Below the pieces are notes generated by a model that was not told the origin of the DNA, did not search any database, and was given only the letters and a program-made list of their open reading frames with translations. 64,000 nt of DNA from NCBI RefSeq assembly GCF_003860565.1, contig NZ_CP034157.1, positions 2,170,001 through 2,234,000 of the forward strand. Reading direction: 5' to 3'. The stretch is from Cloacibacterium normanense (GTDB lineage Bacteria > Bacteroidota > Bacteroidia > Flavobacteriales > Weeksellaceae). A program made the translations under genes and the position numbers. Positions 11,140 to 26,700 of this stretch are shown here, piece by piece (positions within the stretch are counted from its first letter, which is position 1; each line of letters starts with the position of its first letter).

Positions 11140-11171
11140 TTTGGAAAACCAATAAACTTGATATAGTTTTG
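11140..11171 (+). promoter_or_regulatory. Promoter of the polycysteine leader/TonB receptor
   Basis: TTTG at 11140-11143, 20 nt spacer and TAGTTTTG at 11164-11171 match the Bacteroidota promoter pattern. Transcription should start near 11178, a few bases before the leader ORF. Confidence 0.65.
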
Positions 11172-11181
11172 CCAAAGATTT

Positions 11182-11301
11182 ATGACAACAAACGAAATCA
11201 TATCAAACTATTCTTATATCAACATTATAACAATGATGTGCTGTTGTTCTCCTATTATGCAAAATAAGAGGGCAATAAATTGCGTCATTATGATTGATTA
11301 A
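11182..11301 (+). CDS. Polycysteine leader peptide (39 aa, predicted uORF)
   Basis: An open frame ATG 11182 to TAA 11301 encodes 39 residues, beginning MTTNEIISNYSYIN, with the central MMCCCSPIMQ and one later Cys. An internal ATG at 11233 gives a 22-residue version. It lies at the very 5' end of the predicted mRNA and is followed by a terminator hairpin at 11333-11354, then the TonB receptor at 11389. Tandem Cys codons at 11239-11247 are what a cysteine-sensing ribosome-mediated attenuator needs; polycysteine uORFs controlling sulfur genes are known in mycobacteria. There is no homology evidence here, so translation is predicted only. Confidence 0.6.
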   Translation: MTTNEIISNYSYINIITMMCCCSPIMQNKRAINCVIMID

Positions 11302-11361
11302 GTAGAAATTCTATTAACAATATATATTAATGAGCCCTCAGTTTTCTGAGGGCTTTTTTTG
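11261..11361 (+). promoter_or_regulatory. Transcription attenuator: antiterminator versus terminator
   Basis: Terminator: AGCCCTCAG (11333-11341), loop TTTT, CTGAGGGCT (11346-11354), then Ts to 11360. Alternative pairing: GAGGGC inside the leader ORF (11268-11273) is complementary to GCCCTC (11334-11339), the 5' arm of the terminator, and AAAA (11261-11264) can pair with TTTT (11342-11345). A ribosome stalled on the Cys codons at 11239-11247 would leave 11261 onward free, favouring antitermination. A ribosome reaching the stop at 11301 would cover 11261-11273 and allow termination. Confidence 0.6.
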
Positions 11362-11388
11362 TTCAAAAAAAAAATTAAACTTTAAAAT

Positions 11389-14124
11389 ATGAAAAGAAAA
11401 CAACAATTGTTAGGATTATTGGTAATTACAGGATTAGGAATTCCTACATTATCAAATGCACAAAAGAAAGATTCTGTACAAGAAAAAAACATCGAAGAGA
11501 CCGTTTTGTTAGGTTCTAGAGGAGGTGTAAGGTCAAAAACAGACAGCCCCGTTCCTGTAGATGTATTCAACTTAAAGAAAGAAAGTATCATACTTCCTCA
11601 ATCAAATATTAATCAAATTCTTAATATCATTGCACCGTCTTTTACTTCTACAGTGCAGACAGCAGCAGATGGAACAGACCATTTAGATCCCGCTCAATTA
11701 AGAGGTCTTGGACCAGACCAAGTTCTGGTTTTAGTAAACGGAAAAAGAAGACACTCTTCTGCTCTAATTAATGTAAACGGAACACCAGGAAGAGGAACTG
11801 TAGGAAAAGACCTTAATGCTATCCCGTCTTTTGCAATAGACAGATTAGAAGTTTTGAGAGACGGAGCTTCTGCGCAATATGGTTCTGATGCAATTGCTGG
11901 AGTTATCAATTTAGGCTTAAAAAGAGACACAGGAAAACTTAGTGGACAGTTTACTTACGGTGGAAATCTAACTCCAACAGCTAATGACCATACTGGAAAT
12001 TTTGACGGACAAAACATTCAGGTAGATTTAAATTACGGAAATAAAATAGGCGAAAAAGGTGGTTTCTATAACATTACTTGGTCTTCTCAGTTTAGAGATG
12101 CTACTTCTAGAGCAGGAACAGAAAGCGGAAATTTATTTAATGCTTACAATGCAATAGAACAACGTGCCTTAGAAAATGGAGTAAATCTTTCATCTCTTTT
12201 CAGCAATATTAATAACACGCCAAATTCTCAGCAGATTATTAATTACATTCATCAATACGCACAAAATGTAAATTATTTTTCTAGTGCTTACCAAAGTCAA
12301 ATTCAAAATGCAAGCACAATCTCGGCACTTCAAGGAATACTAACTACCAATTTCACAGACCAAGAATTAGCTTATAGAGGTCTTACTAGAAAAGATTTCA
12401 ACATGCAAATTGGTCAATCTAAACTAAACAACCATCAGCTTTTTGCAAACATTGAAGTTCCTGTTAGCGACCATTGGAAAGTTTATACTTTTGGAGGATA
12501 TAGCTACAGAAACGGTGTTTCGGGAGGTTTTTACAGAAGACCAAACCAATCAAGAACATTTACAGGATTGTATCCAAATGGCTACCTTCCTCAAATTGGA
12601 ACTCAAATTCAAGACATTTCTTTTTCTACAGGAATTAAAGGCGATTGGAAAGGTTGGAATATCGACTTGAGCAACACTTTCGGACAAAATTCTTTCGATT
12701 ACACCATCAAAAACACAGGAAATACTTCTCTTAGATTTGCTTCTCCTAACGAATTTGACGCTGGAGGTTTAAGATTTACTCAAAACACCATCAATTTAGA
12801 TTTCAATAAAGATTACGACATTCTTTCTGGATTAAATGTTGCATTCGGAGGAGAACACAGATACGAAAATTTCAAAATTTCTGCGGGAGAAGAAGCTTCA
12901 TATACCGCTTATGACATTTTCGGAAATCCACAAACAACTACTACAGCAGCTAACCAAAAACCTACAGACTTTTTTGGAAACACACTTCCTGGAGGTTCAC
13001 AAGTTTTCGGAGGTTTCAGACCAGACAATGCCGTAAGCAAAAACAGACAATCTGTAGCTGGATATGTAGATTTTGCGCTTAATATTACAGATTGGTTCTT
13101 GGCAGATGCAGCTGCTCGTTATGAAAATTATTCAGATTTTGGCTCTACATTTAACTATAAATTAGCTTCAAGAATTAAAGTTGCAGACAATTTCAATTTT
13201 AGATTTGCAGGTTCTACAGGCTTCAGAGCGCCTTCTATTCATCAAATTTATTACAATGTAACTTCTACTTTGTTCACCAGCGGACAACTTTTGGAAGTAG
13301 GAACATTCAGCAACGATTCAAAAATTGCAAATCTTCTTGGCATCCCAAAACTTAAACAAGAAACTTCAAAATCAGCAAGTGTAGGTTTTACTTATAAAAT
13401 TCCTTCGGCAAACCTTACCATTACAGCAGATGGTTATTTCACAAGAATTGATGACAGAATTCTTTTAACTGGACAATTTTCAAGAGCTGCTGTTTCTGCC
13501 GTTGCAAAAGCTGCTTACGATGAAGCTCAGGTAAATGCAACTCAATTTTTTGTAAATGCAATTGATACTGAAACCAAAGGTTTAGACTTTGTAATTACTC
13601 AAAACAGTAAAATCTCTAATGTGAAAATTGATAACAATTTTGCGATAAACCTCAACAAAACTAAAAAAGTTGGAGCAACGCACACTTCCGGTTTATTACA
13701 ATCTCCAGATTTAGAAAAAGTATATTTCGCCGAAAACGTTAGGGTTTATTTAGAAGAAGCTACTCCAAGAGTGAAAGCTACATTATCTCACAATATCTCT
13801 TGGAAAGACTTTTCTTTCTACCTAAGAAATACCTATTACGGAAAAGTAACATCTCCAGATTTAATAGACGTAAACGGTGACGGAACAATTGGCGCACAAG
13901 AACACCAATCTATTGCAGATAAAGTAATTACAGACGTGTCTGCGGCTTATCAATTTACAAAAAATGTAGGTTTATCTCTTGGCGTAAACAATGTTTTTGA
14001 CATTTATCCAACCAAAAACCTTACCGCTTCTACCAATAACGACCAGTTTATCTACTCTCGTTCCACCTCACAATTTGGACTAAACGGAAGATACGTTTTT
14101 GCTAGAATTAATTTTAATTTCTAA
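11389..14124 (+). CDS. TonB-dependent outer membrane receptor, cysteine-attenuated
   Basis: 911 residues. A signal peptide ending at SNAQ (about residue 24) is followed directly by a plug domain with LRGLGPDQVLVLVNGKRR and RDGASAQYGSDAIAGVINL, then a long beta-barrel ending in Phe (ARINFNF). No carboxypeptidase-regulatory-like domain is present, so it is not a SusC type. The substrate is not readable from the protein. The polycysteine leader and terminator upstream, and the DUF4395 gene with a CxxC motif downstream, suggest import of a sulfur compound; this is inference. Confidence 0.93.
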   Translation: MKRKQQLLGLLVITGLGIPTLSNAQKKDSVQEKNIEETVLLGSRGGVRSKTDSPVPVDVFNLKKESIILPQSNINQILNIIAPSFTSTVQTAADGTDHLDPAQLRGLGPDQVLVLVNGKRRHSSALINVNGTPGRGTVGKDLNAIPSFAIDRLEVLRDGASAQYGSDAIAGVINLGLKRDTGKLSGQFTYGGNLTPTANDHTGNFDGQNIQVDLNYGNKIGEKGGFYNITWSSQFRDATSRAGTESGNLFNAYNAIEQRALENGVNLSSLFSNINNTPNSQQIINYIHQYAQNVNYFSSAYQSQIQNASTISALQGILTTNFTDQELAYRGLTRKDFNMQIGQSKLNNHQLFANIEVPVSDHWKVYTFGGYSYRNGVSGGFYRRPNQSRTFTGLYPNGYLPQIGTQIQDISFSTGIKGDWKGWNIDLSNTFGQNSFDYTIKNTGNTSLRFASPNEFDAGGLRFTQNTINLDFNKDYDILSGLNVAFGGEHRYENFKISAGEEASYTAYDIFGNPQTTTTAANQKPTDFFGNTLPGGSQVFGGFRPDNAVSKNRQSVAGYVDFALNITDWFLADAAARYENYSDFGSTFNYKLASRIKVADNFNFRFAGSTGFRAPSIHQIYYNVTSTLFTSGQLLEVGTFSNDSKIANLLGIPKLKQETSKSASVGFTYKIPSANLTITADGYFTRIDDRILLTGQFSRAAVSAVAKAAYDEAQVNATQFFVNAIDTETKGLDFVITQNSKISNVKIDNNFAINLNKTKKVGATHTSGLLQSPDLEKVYFAENVRVYLEEATPRVKATLSHNISWKDFSFYLRNTYYGKVTSPDLIDVNGDGTIGAQEHQSIADKVITDVSAAYQFTKNVGLSLGVNNVFDIYPTKNLTASTNNDQFIYSRSTSQFGLNGRYVFARINFNF

Positions 14125-14140
14125 TAATTTTTATACCAAT

Positions 14141-14174
14141 AAACCGGCAGTAGCACAAATTTTGCTGTCGGTTT
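14141..14174 (+). other. Intercistronic hairpin
   Basis: AAACCGGCAGTA (14141-14152) pairs with TGCTGTCGGTTT (14163-14174), 12 bp with two G-T pairs and a 10-nt loop. No U-tract follows on either strand, so it is not a standard terminator. It may set the mRNA ratio or stability between the receptor and DUF4395 genes. Confidence 0.5.
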
Positions 14175-14195
14175 ATAAAAAAACAAAACAAATTT

Positions 14196-14594
14196 ATGCC
14201 CACAGAAAACAAAATCAGAATAACCGCATTTTTAGTATTTATCTTAACCATTTTATACATCACCACTCATTCCATTTGGATTCCTCTTTTTCTATTGATA
14301 GATTTCGCTTTCAGAGGTTCTGGATACGGAAAATGGAGCATTTTAGGATTAATTGCCGAAAGATTAGTAAACATTCTTAAATTAGAACAAAAACCAATCT
14401 ATTTCCCACCGAAACAATTTGCAGCACAAGTAGGTTTTATTTTTTCATTGACCTTGTTGGTTTTTAATCTTCTCGAAATCAACAGTCTTATTGTAAGCGG
14501 AATTTTGCTGATTTGCGCAGGTCTGGAAGCGTTTTTCAATTTCTGTGTAGGATGTTATGTGTACAATGCTTATTATCACATCAAAAATAAATAG
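14196..14594 (+). CDS. DUF4395 family membrane protein
   Basis: 132 residues with four hydrophobic segments and the DUF4395 C-terminal signature GLEAFFNFCVGCYVY (Cys117 and Cys120, CxxC). An amphipathic loop RLVNILKLEQKPIYFPPKQF lies mid-protein. In other phyla DUF4395 proteins occur beside thioredoxin or sulfurtransferase genes, from memory, so a role in thiol or sulfur handling is plausible. It follows the TonB receptor by 71 nt with a hairpin between them and may be co-transcribed under the cysteine attenuator. Confidence 0.8.
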   Translation: MPTENKIRITAFLVFILTILYITTHSIWIPLFLLIDFAFRGSGYGKWSILGLIAERLVNILKLEQKPIYFPPKQFAAQVGFIFSLTLLVFNLLEINSLIVSGILLICAGLEAFFNFCVGCYVYNAYYHIKNK

Positions 14595-25284: not shown

Positions 25285-26562
25285 TTATAAGTTGAAGGCT
25301 TTCTTAATATCTTCTACTCTGTCTAGCTTTTCCCAAGTAAAGAATTCTAGATTATCGAGTGTAATTTCATTTTTTTGACCTTTATTGAAAGTCTTGCTTC
25401 CTACGTAGTAATCTCTTCCCATGTGTCCGTAAGCTGCAGTTTCTTGATAGATTGGATTTCTCAACTTCAAGTTATGCTCAATTGCGTAAGGTCTTAAATC
25501 AAATAATTCTTGAACTTTTTTTGCTAATTCACCATCATTGACTCCTACTTTAGAAGTTCCGTAAGTATTAATAAACAAACCACAAGGTTCTGCTACACCA
25601 ATTGCGTAAGAAACCTGAACCAAAACTTCATCTGCGACTCCTGCAGCTACTAAGTTTTTAGCAATGTGTCTTGTTGCATAAGCAGCACTTCTGTCTACTT
25701 TTGATGGATCTTTTCCAGAAAAAGCACCACCACCGTGAGCTCCTTTTCCGCCGTATGTATCTACGATAATTTTTCTACCAGTTAAACCAGTGTCACCGTG
25801 AGGTCCACCAATTACAAATTTTCCAGTTGGGTTAATGTGGTATTTAATTTGGTCATTAAACAATGCTTGGATTTCTGGCTTTTGTTGAGCGATTACTCTA
25901 GGCATTAGAATTTCGATGATATCTTTTCTAATTTTCGCTAACATTTCTTCATCTTCTGCAAAATCATCATGCTGTGTAGAAACTACAATAGCGTCTATTC
26001 TTTGTGGTTTATGATCATCTGAATATTCAATTGTTACTTGAGACTTCGCGTCTGGACGAAGATATTTAATCTCTGTTCCTTCCCTTCTGATTGCTGAAAG
26101 TTCTCTTAAAATAGAATGTGCTAAATCTAATGCAAGTGGCATATAATTTTCGGTTTCATTGGTTGCATAACCGAACATCATTCCTTGGTCTCCTGCTCCT
26201 TGAGCATTTGCTTTTTCTTCAAAAGATTCTCCAGATTTTCTATCAACTCCTTGATTAATATCTGAAGATTGCTCGTGAATTGCAGAAATTACACCACAAG
26301 AATCACCATTAAACATATATTCACCTTTGGTATAACCTATTCCATTGATGACTTCTCTAGCGATGGTCTGTACATCTAGATAAGCTTCTGATTTCACTTC
26401 TCCTGCTAGTACAACTTGTCCTGTAGTGACTAAAGTTTCACAAGCGACCTTAGAATTTCTATCATGAGCTAAAAAATTATCAATAAGCGCATCAGAAATT
26501 TGGTCTGCTACTTTGTCTGGATGTCCTTCTGAAACAGATTCAGATGTAAATAAATAAGGCAT
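25285..26562 (-). CDS. metK: S-adenosylmethionine synthetase
   Basis: 425 residues. Signature segments: [19 protein letters not shown] at residues 7-25 (ATP site, His14), [12 protein letters not shown], and [19 protein letters not shown] (P-loop-like). [20 protein letters not shown] carries substrate-binding residues. It makes SAM from methionine and ATP in the cytosol. A promoter at 26701-26731 and a SAM-II-like aptamer at 26638-26686 precede it, so product feedback at the RNA level is likely. Confidence 0.97.
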
Positions 26563-26637
26563 ATTATTATTTTCTTTTTAAGGATTAAAATAGAAAAAAA
26601 TGGAAGGCAAACCTTATGAGAACTAAAAAGAAGAAAT

Positions 26638-26690
26638 CTGTTTTAGCATTTTTTATTGAGGTTGCAATCAGTCCAAATTTTTCCTCTAAA
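26638..26690 (-). promoter_or_regulatory. SAM-II-like riboswitch upstream of metK
   Basis: Minus-strand features in order: P1 5' arm GAGG (26686-26683), loop containing ATTTGGACTGATTGCAA, P1 3' arm CCTC (26661-26658), AATAAAAA, the conserved TGCTAAAA (26648-26641) and CAG (26640-26638), which can pair with CTG in the loop (26671-26669) to form the pseudoknot. ATTTG, TTGCAACC and TGCTAAAA match my memory of the SAM-II consensus. Gene context (metK) and the promoter just upstream agree. It ends about 75 nt before the start codon. Confidence 0.7.
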
Positions 26691-26700
26691 ATTTGTTGGG

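Follow-up and report, generated by a model that had tools for sequence, protein, structure and literature searches.

Classical amino-acid attenuators combine tandem codons of the regulating amino acid, alternative 1:2, 2:3, and 3:4 stems, and an intrinsic terminator. The locus described here, in a 64,000-nucleotide stretch of Cloacibacterium normanense DNA (the window, in whose positions all coordinates are given), shares the tandem-codon leader, the three stems, and the intrinsic terminator with the Rfam families His_leader, Thr_leader, and Trp_leader, but differs from them in amino acid, in targets (an outer-membrane receptor and a DUF4395 protein), and in phylum, and its scores against them, 18–22 bits, are sub-threshold. 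Polycysteine leaders of actinobacterial cys operons were reportedly described by Canestrari in 2020. In the accessible portion of a 2005 paper, actinobacterial cys leaders carry a run of Cys codons near the stop codon of a short ORF before sulfur genes, and no conserved terminator hairpin was found for those of Mycobacterium (PMC1262725). Unlike in the leaders as depicted there, the Cys run in the window lies 17 codons before the end of the ORF, and both a terminator and an antiterminator are present.

The uORFC-8-2 leader of cysS in Rhodobacterales has tandem Cys codons within its first stem and an intrinsic terminator, and read-through has been proposed to occur when charged tRNA-Cys is short (PMC8632094, in the portion accessible). 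The window leader resembles it in the Cys-codon uORF, the first stem over the codons, and the intrinsic terminator; however, uORFC-8-2 is reported in that portion only before cysS of Rhodobacterales, whereas the window leader belongs to another phylum and precedes a TonB-dependent receptor and DUF4395. CruR, according to excerpts of its description, is a Cys-bearing DUF2946 uORF that precedes a TonB-dependent transporter and acts by Rho-dependent termination in response to copper (PMC9426467). The window leader is likewise a Cys-bearing uORF before a TonB-dependent receptor, but it has an intrinsic terminator and no match in Pfam or NCBIfam, DUF2946 included. In related genomes, homologous receptors and metY are preceded by SAM (RF00162) and SAM-I/IV (RF01725) riboswitches, likewise a control tied to sulfur amino acids; these bind SAM directly, and neither matches the window leader.

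Within Bacteroidota, attenuation has been proposed before amino-acid biosynthesis operons of Flavobacterium psychrophilum; the available part of the text names no sulfur gene (PMC9723704). Excerpts of another study mention short ORFs resembling leaders in Bacteroides thetaiotaomicron (PMC7366714). The part of PMC2965389 covered contains nothing on Bacteroidota. Among the literature matches listed, in which subscription journals are thinly covered, none describes a cysteine attenuator in Bacteroidota or in front of an outer-membrane receptor. As far as the literature found extends, the switch would be a variant of ribosome-mediated attenuation new for both its phylum and its targets.

Organization of the leader and its neighbouring genes

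The leader region precedes genes for a TonB-dependent receptor and a DUF4395 protein, and contains the following elements, all on the + strand:

11140–11171, +: putative promoter TTTG-N20-TAGTTTTG (TTTG at 11140–11143, TAGTTTTG at 11164–11171), recognized by sequence
11182–11301, +: leader peptide ORF of 39 codons (MTTNEIISNYSYINIITMMCCCSPIMQNKRAINCVIMID), recognized by sequence and by CCC leader ORFs in four sister genomes
11239–11247, +: three tandem Cys control codons, TGC TGT TGT, common to all five genomes compared
11244–11251, +: region 1 (UUGUUCUC), beginning within the second Cys codon, predicted to pair with region 2
11268–11275, +: region 2 (GAGGGCAA), predicted to pair with region 1 or, through GAGGGC at 11268–11273, with region 3 as the antiterminator
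11332–11360, +: intrinsic terminator hairpin and T run, with the stem at 11332–11355, from a terminator scan and folding
11334–11339, +: region 3 (GCCCTC), the 5′ arm of the terminator and partner of the antiterminator
11348–11353, +: region 4 (GAGGGC), the 3′ arm of the terminator
11389–14124, +: TonB-dependent receptor of 911 amino acids, with Pfam Plug and beta-barrel domains
14196–14594, +: DUF4395 protein with an invariant CxGC motif (Pfam PF14340)

The initial annotation had already placed the promoter, the 39-codon ORF with its Cys codons, the internal GAGGGC, and the terminator, and all of them were found at those positions. The promoter is of a type that we take to be usual in Bacteroidota; its pattern occurs eight times in the window against 4.35 expected, and is weak evidence alone. 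The start of the leader is uncertain, as the ATG at 11233 is an in-frame alternative. The Cys run is followed by 17 more codons, with a single extra Cys at codon 34. The terminator ends approximately 28 nt upstream of the receptor ATG at 11389, and is the one terminator-like site in 601 nt, where 0.1 would be expected. A complement of its 5′ arm matching the quality of GAGGGC arose in 29 of 2,000 dinucleotide shuffles of the ORF. The pattern TGYTGYTGY occurs at 214 places in the genome, against 45 for the reversed control; three of the first 30 places, all from the + strand, lie within a short ATG ORF, and none of these three has a terminator-like hairpin behind it. A search of the leader against Rfam gave nothing at the gathering threshold, the SAM riboswitch families RF00162 and RF01725 included, with the best leader families scoring 17.9–22.7 bits against thresholds of 41–55.

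Upstream of the leader, a gene on the opposite strand reads as topA, and DUF4395 is followed by a DUF2062 gene and then by a gene that reads as ileS; topA and ileS were both named by eye. The CxGC motif is invariant across seven aligned DUF4395 sequences; the family is mentioned a single time in each of two papers among the literature matches listed. The solved structures related to the receptor by sequence are siderophore, colicin I, and B12 receptors. Between the receptor and DUF4395, at 14139–14176, there is a 15-bp hairpin of −19.6 kcal/mol that lacks a T run.

Alternative pairings and conservation within the genus

The competing helices were folded at 30 °C. In the window, the 1:2 duplex has an energy of −12.5 kcal/mol, the 2:3 duplex, in which region 2 is bound to GCCCUC, −14.9 kcal/mol, and the terminator, formed by regions 3 and 4, −19.8 kcal/mol. 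When the RNA upstream of position 11258 is omitted, which mimics a ribosome waiting at the Cys codons, and the 3′ arm is absent, GAGGGC pairs with GCCCUC. Inclusion of the 3′ arm makes the terminator the more stable of the folds, and therefore the switch must be kinetic. The control codons overlap region 1 of the 1:2 hairpin, as predicted by folding in the window and by the best ungapped helix in five of five genomes of the genus.

We consider it highly probable that these elements constitute a transcription attenuator of the ribosome-mediated kind, which responds to charged tRNA-Cys and governs a receptor–DUF4395 sulfur-uptake operon. With enough cysteine, a ribosome translating the leader would pass the Cys codons and region 1 would re-pair with region 2; with region 2 held in this way, region 3 would pair with region 4 and transcription would stop. 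When cysteine is scarce, the ribosome would wait on the Cys codons and cover region 1, so that region 2 could capture the emerging region 3; the terminator could not form, and the receptor would be made together with the DUF4395 protein, presumably from one transcript. The leader and its RNA switch would thus very probably let the bacterium turn on sulfur uptake when cysteine is short. The initial annotation proposed that stalling exposes the antiterminator and that a ribosome at the stop codon hides GAGGGC. The latter we reject on distance: with 25 nt between region 2 and the stop codon, region 2 would lie behind a ribosome waiting there. Hiding of region 2 by region 1, the Cys-codon region, is preferred.

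Seven genomes of the genus were compared, the window species included. A close copy of the receptor is present in the window species only, and two other genomes have distant relatives of it, 38% identical over the larger aligned part. DUF4395 is present at 90–100% identity in five genomes, that of the window included, and in distant versions in the remaining two; the 500 nt upstream of the distant DUF4395 matches contain no ORF with CC. In the four sister genomes with a close DUF4395, the topA and DUF4395–ileS flanks align to the window at 87–96%, and between them lies a CCC leader ORF, such as MKTSTSTLTKLQKMNCCCPFKNQKRTD of L389 or MKTTLSTFTKIQKMNCCCSFKTKEDRLDDVTF of L392, followed by a terminator and directly by DUF4395. 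The leader of one sister, L390, has an in-frame ATG further upstream. By eye, the promoter upstream of the sister leaders reads TTTG-N20-TATTTTTG in three of the four and TTTG-N20-TGTTTTTG in the fourth, L390. A homologous CCC leader thus occupies this position in four sisters that lack the receptor, and the leader is therefore independent of the receptor, old in the genus, and a part of the DUF4395 locus. The receptor either was inserted between the leader and DUF4395 in the window species or was lost from the sisters. Insertion seems the likelier, because in nine loci of two other genera (g6 and g22) the receptor stands behind one other gene and not behind this leader.

In each of the five genomes, the three Cys codons are present, the 2:3 and the 3:4 helix both have six of six Watson–Crick pairs, and the best 1:2 helix begins at +5 to +7, counted from the first nucleotide of the Cys codons. 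The complementarity of region 2 to the terminator 5′ arm, first annotated for GAGGGC and GCCCTC in the window, is thus retained throughout, and since region 3 can pair fully with region 2 or with region 4 in each genome, the antiterminator and the terminator are mutually exclusive by pairing potential. Regions 2, 3, and 4 read GAGGGC, GCCCTC, and GAGGGC in the window and GAGGAC, GTCCTC, and GAGGAC in the four sisters, a change of three substitutions that keeps both alternative helices. This covariation is a single event, with one pair per helix differing between two haplotypes, and covariation in the terminator alone was matched by 87 of 500 shuffles. Sliding the partner by one to three columns lowers the pairing from 100% to 32–65%. 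Because the MAFFT alignments misplace region 2, a script was used to count its pairs.

Homologous receptors in other genera

Receptor matches with E-values up to 1e-100 were found in 197 of 320 genomes of the family. Conservation of the switch was expected before orthologous receptors, and before the nearest of these it fails: none of the 29 fetched from genera g6 and g22 has TGYTGYTGY within 350 nt upstream, and all 29 have the promoter palindrome AGTCYA-N4-TTTTGTRGACT instead. The expected conservation of Cys codons and alternative stems in relatives therefore applies to the DUF4395 locus within the genus and not to the nearest receptor orthologs. A tree of 39 selected receptors groups that of the window with g6 and g22, the palindrome genera, in a single clade (99/93); genus g30 and the genera with SAM riboswitches lie outside this clade.

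In loci L006–L034, and also in L128 and L133, a palindrome AGTCTA-N8-TAGACT upstream of the receptor spans the −33 element, where it is probably a repressor site. The palindrome of the nearest orthologs does not exceed its reversed control in the genus of the window, and in three g6 genomes, with one mismatch allowed, its nine places are barely above the five in controls. One of the g6 genomes, G165, also has the palindrome upstream of a SusC-type receptor with a SAM riboswitch and upstream of a peroxiredoxin-like gene, and the link of the palindrome to sulfur is suggestive only. A variant palindrome, CCTAC...GTAGG, was seen by eye upstream of the receptor in L134 and L143 (genera g21 and g20).

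Other homologous receptors are preceded by sulfur sensors or by leaders containing Met and Cys. A SAM riboswitch lies upstream of all ten orthologs read from genera g11 and g9 (seven of the 20 matched g11 genomes and three of the four matched g9 genomes). In three of the four g30 loci read, there is a leader MPCFMMC..., whose GCGGC repeats the 3′ arm of the terminator; taken singly, the region-2 matches in g30 leaders are weak, with 144 and 111 of 2,000 shuffles as good. In one g30 genome, an oligopeptide:H+ symporter gene (TIGR00924; L156, 4010–5794) stands behind the receptor, a hint at peptide uptake. A paralogous receptor of g6, 57–58% identical to that of the window, is preceded by a SAM-I/IV riboswitch in all 23 genomes read (L159–L173 and L241–L248), and 20 of these 23 have a leader ending in MxMCCCF, MxMCCCS, MxMCCCC, or, once, MRMHCCF. 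In L245, the riboswitch ends at position 759 and the leader ORF starts about 47 nt further on. This succession of riboswitch and polycysteine uORF may be a two-input switch. By eye, a hairpin such as GTAACC...GGTTAC can be seen behind the polycysteine uORF. Rfam gave nothing at the gathering threshold in 20 other loci, the four g30 loci and three palindrome loci among them.

As a control, 26 other receptors of the order (L209, L213, L216–L227, and L229–L240) were examined, and none had a Met/Cys leader by the pattern used; each start was placed at the first Met in the longest open frame, which may leave some upstream regions off, and six order-level loci that bear leaders (L210–L212, L214, L215, and L228) were set aside as positives. 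Among the latter, L228 (genome G322) belongs to a more distant receptor and has MNKMIINISCTMCCCC as its leader; an inverted repeat links the start of this leader to the stretch behind it. In a DNA search with the whole leader over the 320 family genomes, the best match listed besides the window reached 48.2 bits over about 50 nt; the three matches read, L097, L098, and L102, were rejected as relatives of the leader, being ordinary terminator-like stretches.

Flavobacterium leaders, metY, and the signal sensed

The receptors of Flavobacterium are approximately 52% identical to that of the window. In their leaders, of which MKLTVCNMSCMMPEPSAETLL is an example, GCAGAG repeats the 3′ arm of the terminator; in the two leaders that were folded, GCAGAG pairs with the Cys/Met codons. 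Taken singly, the region-2 matches are weak (121 and 92 of 2,000 shuffles as good). The Flavobacterium motif was found in 46 of 101 genomes with up to two mismatches, many by chance, and exactly in 17; of 12 exact matches fetched, 11 lie upstream of the receptor and one upstream of metY. The 20-mer ATGTSTTGTAWGATGCCGGA from these leaders was scanned over the GTDB 220 collection; it derives from leaders of receptors and was relaxed at one base so that it would also match a known metY-type leader, and the scan was thus not wholly blind. Its 79 places comprise 57 before this receptor, including eight identified on reading (GTRNKNR or GSRGKNR), 16 before metY, five cut off, and one chance match, L357, which was left out of the later counts. 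In the remaining 78 loci, the leader is followed by the receptor and then metY in 36, by a receptor with fewer than 1,500 bases left in three, and by metY directly in 16, and 23 are cut before the end of the receptor. Thus, metY follows the receptor in 36 of the 39 loci with a whole receptor, the other three being those with fewer than 1,500 bases left. The metY assignment rests on TIGR01326 (646 bits against a cut-off of 495).

The Met, Cys, and Pro codons of the 78 leaders were fixed by the search pattern and are uninformative. Behind the pattern, where the codons are informative, Ser TCC is kept in 76 of 78 and Ala-Glu GCA GAG in all 78. The terminator 5′ arm CCTCTGC was found by pattern in 77 of the 78 loci; 15 changed 3′ arms still pair with it, and the loop is varied. 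A second, richer leader (for example MKTIARKNMMCCSMMQMCIQPCCCQK) precedes metY in at least 23 of the 36 receptor–metY loci, as counted by a strict pattern. Two of the second leaders were folded: each has a terminator of its own, with whose 5′ arm CCAAAAG can pair, and the 1:2 pairing is not predicted (0/7 and 2/7 bases). For one first metY leader, the 1:2 pairing is partly predicted. In six Flavobacterium loci (L302, L296, L309, L341, L259, and L315), two tandem Met/Cys leaders stand before metY, each with a terminator-like hairpin. In the genus of the window, a SAM riboswitch lies upstream of metY in all six genomes where metY was found, out of seven searched. Given the leaders in Flavobacterium and the SAM riboswitches elsewhere, the receptor and metY stand behind leaders in some genera and behind riboswitches in others.

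Comparison with the sisters and with the homologous receptors thus supports what had first been proposed from the window, namely cysteine attenuation, a sulfur role, and a link to DUF4395, where the sulfur role suggested for the receptor and DUF4395 comes through homologs only. Leaders of homologous receptors in other genera are rich in both Met and Cys, and not in Cys alone. The signal could accordingly be methionine, or sulfur amino acids generally, read through Met and Cys codons. The window leader itself contains MMCCC, Flavobacterium leaders contain MSCKMPE, MSCMMPE, or MCCMMPE, the second metY leaders contain MMCCSMMQMC and those of g30 MPCFMMC, and metY is among the downstream genes. 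However, the window codons that overlap region 1 are those for Cys, Ser, and Pro, and the sisters keep CCC but have Asn (MNCCC) in place of the second Met of the window. We regard this wider signal, which would work through the same switch and overlaps with the preferred explanation, as the less probable for the window. A contribution of Met to the signal is possible, most of all in Flavobacterium.

Sensing of a metal through the nascent Cys-rich chain, rather than of tRNA-Cys charging, is very unlikely. CruR, in the portion of its description cited above (PMC9426467), sets a precedent for a copper-sensing uORF before a TonB-dependent transporter, the leaders of the g6 paralog end in patterns such as CHFYMRMCCCF that could bind metal, and by eye no intrinsic terminator was seen behind them. 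Yet the missing DUF2946 match of the window leader, the design in its genus of an intrinsic terminator with alternative stems that use the Cys codons, the related leaders before metY, and the SAM riboswitches in the same place in other genera all argue against copper. Least likely of all is a terminator preceded by a chance ORF with three Cys codons and involved in no regulation. The single elements are indeed common, as the TGYTGYTGY count and the near-chance promoter pattern indicate, but topA runs in the opposite direction and, by gene order, no + strand gene lies upstream that could use this terminator to end its transcript. What speaks most strongly against chance is the conservation of the CCC codons and the pairing regions in the four sisters, five genomes in all.

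Tentatively, attenuation by charged tRNA-Cys in the window may be one instance of a broader arrangement, in which outer-membrane sulfur import in Flavobacteriales runs on exchangeable RNA sensors: Cys attenuators, Met/Cys attenuators, and SAM riboswitches, including the g6 SAM-I/IV riboswitch directly followed by a polycysteine uORF as a two-input form. Receptor genes would move under the local sulfur sensor, as in the window, and DUF4395 would be a cysteine-controlled sulfur transport protein. The genes of one receptor family are, in related genera, preceded by three or four different kinds of control, most of them tied to sulfur. To our knowledge, a substrate is known for only a minority of the TonB-dependent receptors in Bacteroidota; this control, if true, would assign the receptor family and DUF4395 to sulfur nutrition, and the switch offers a reporter-ready means to test that assignment. 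Elsewhere in the window, on the − strand at 26633–26692, a SAM-II riboswitch (62.7 bits) lies upstream of a gene at 25285–26562 that reads, by eye, as metK, encoding SAM synthetase.
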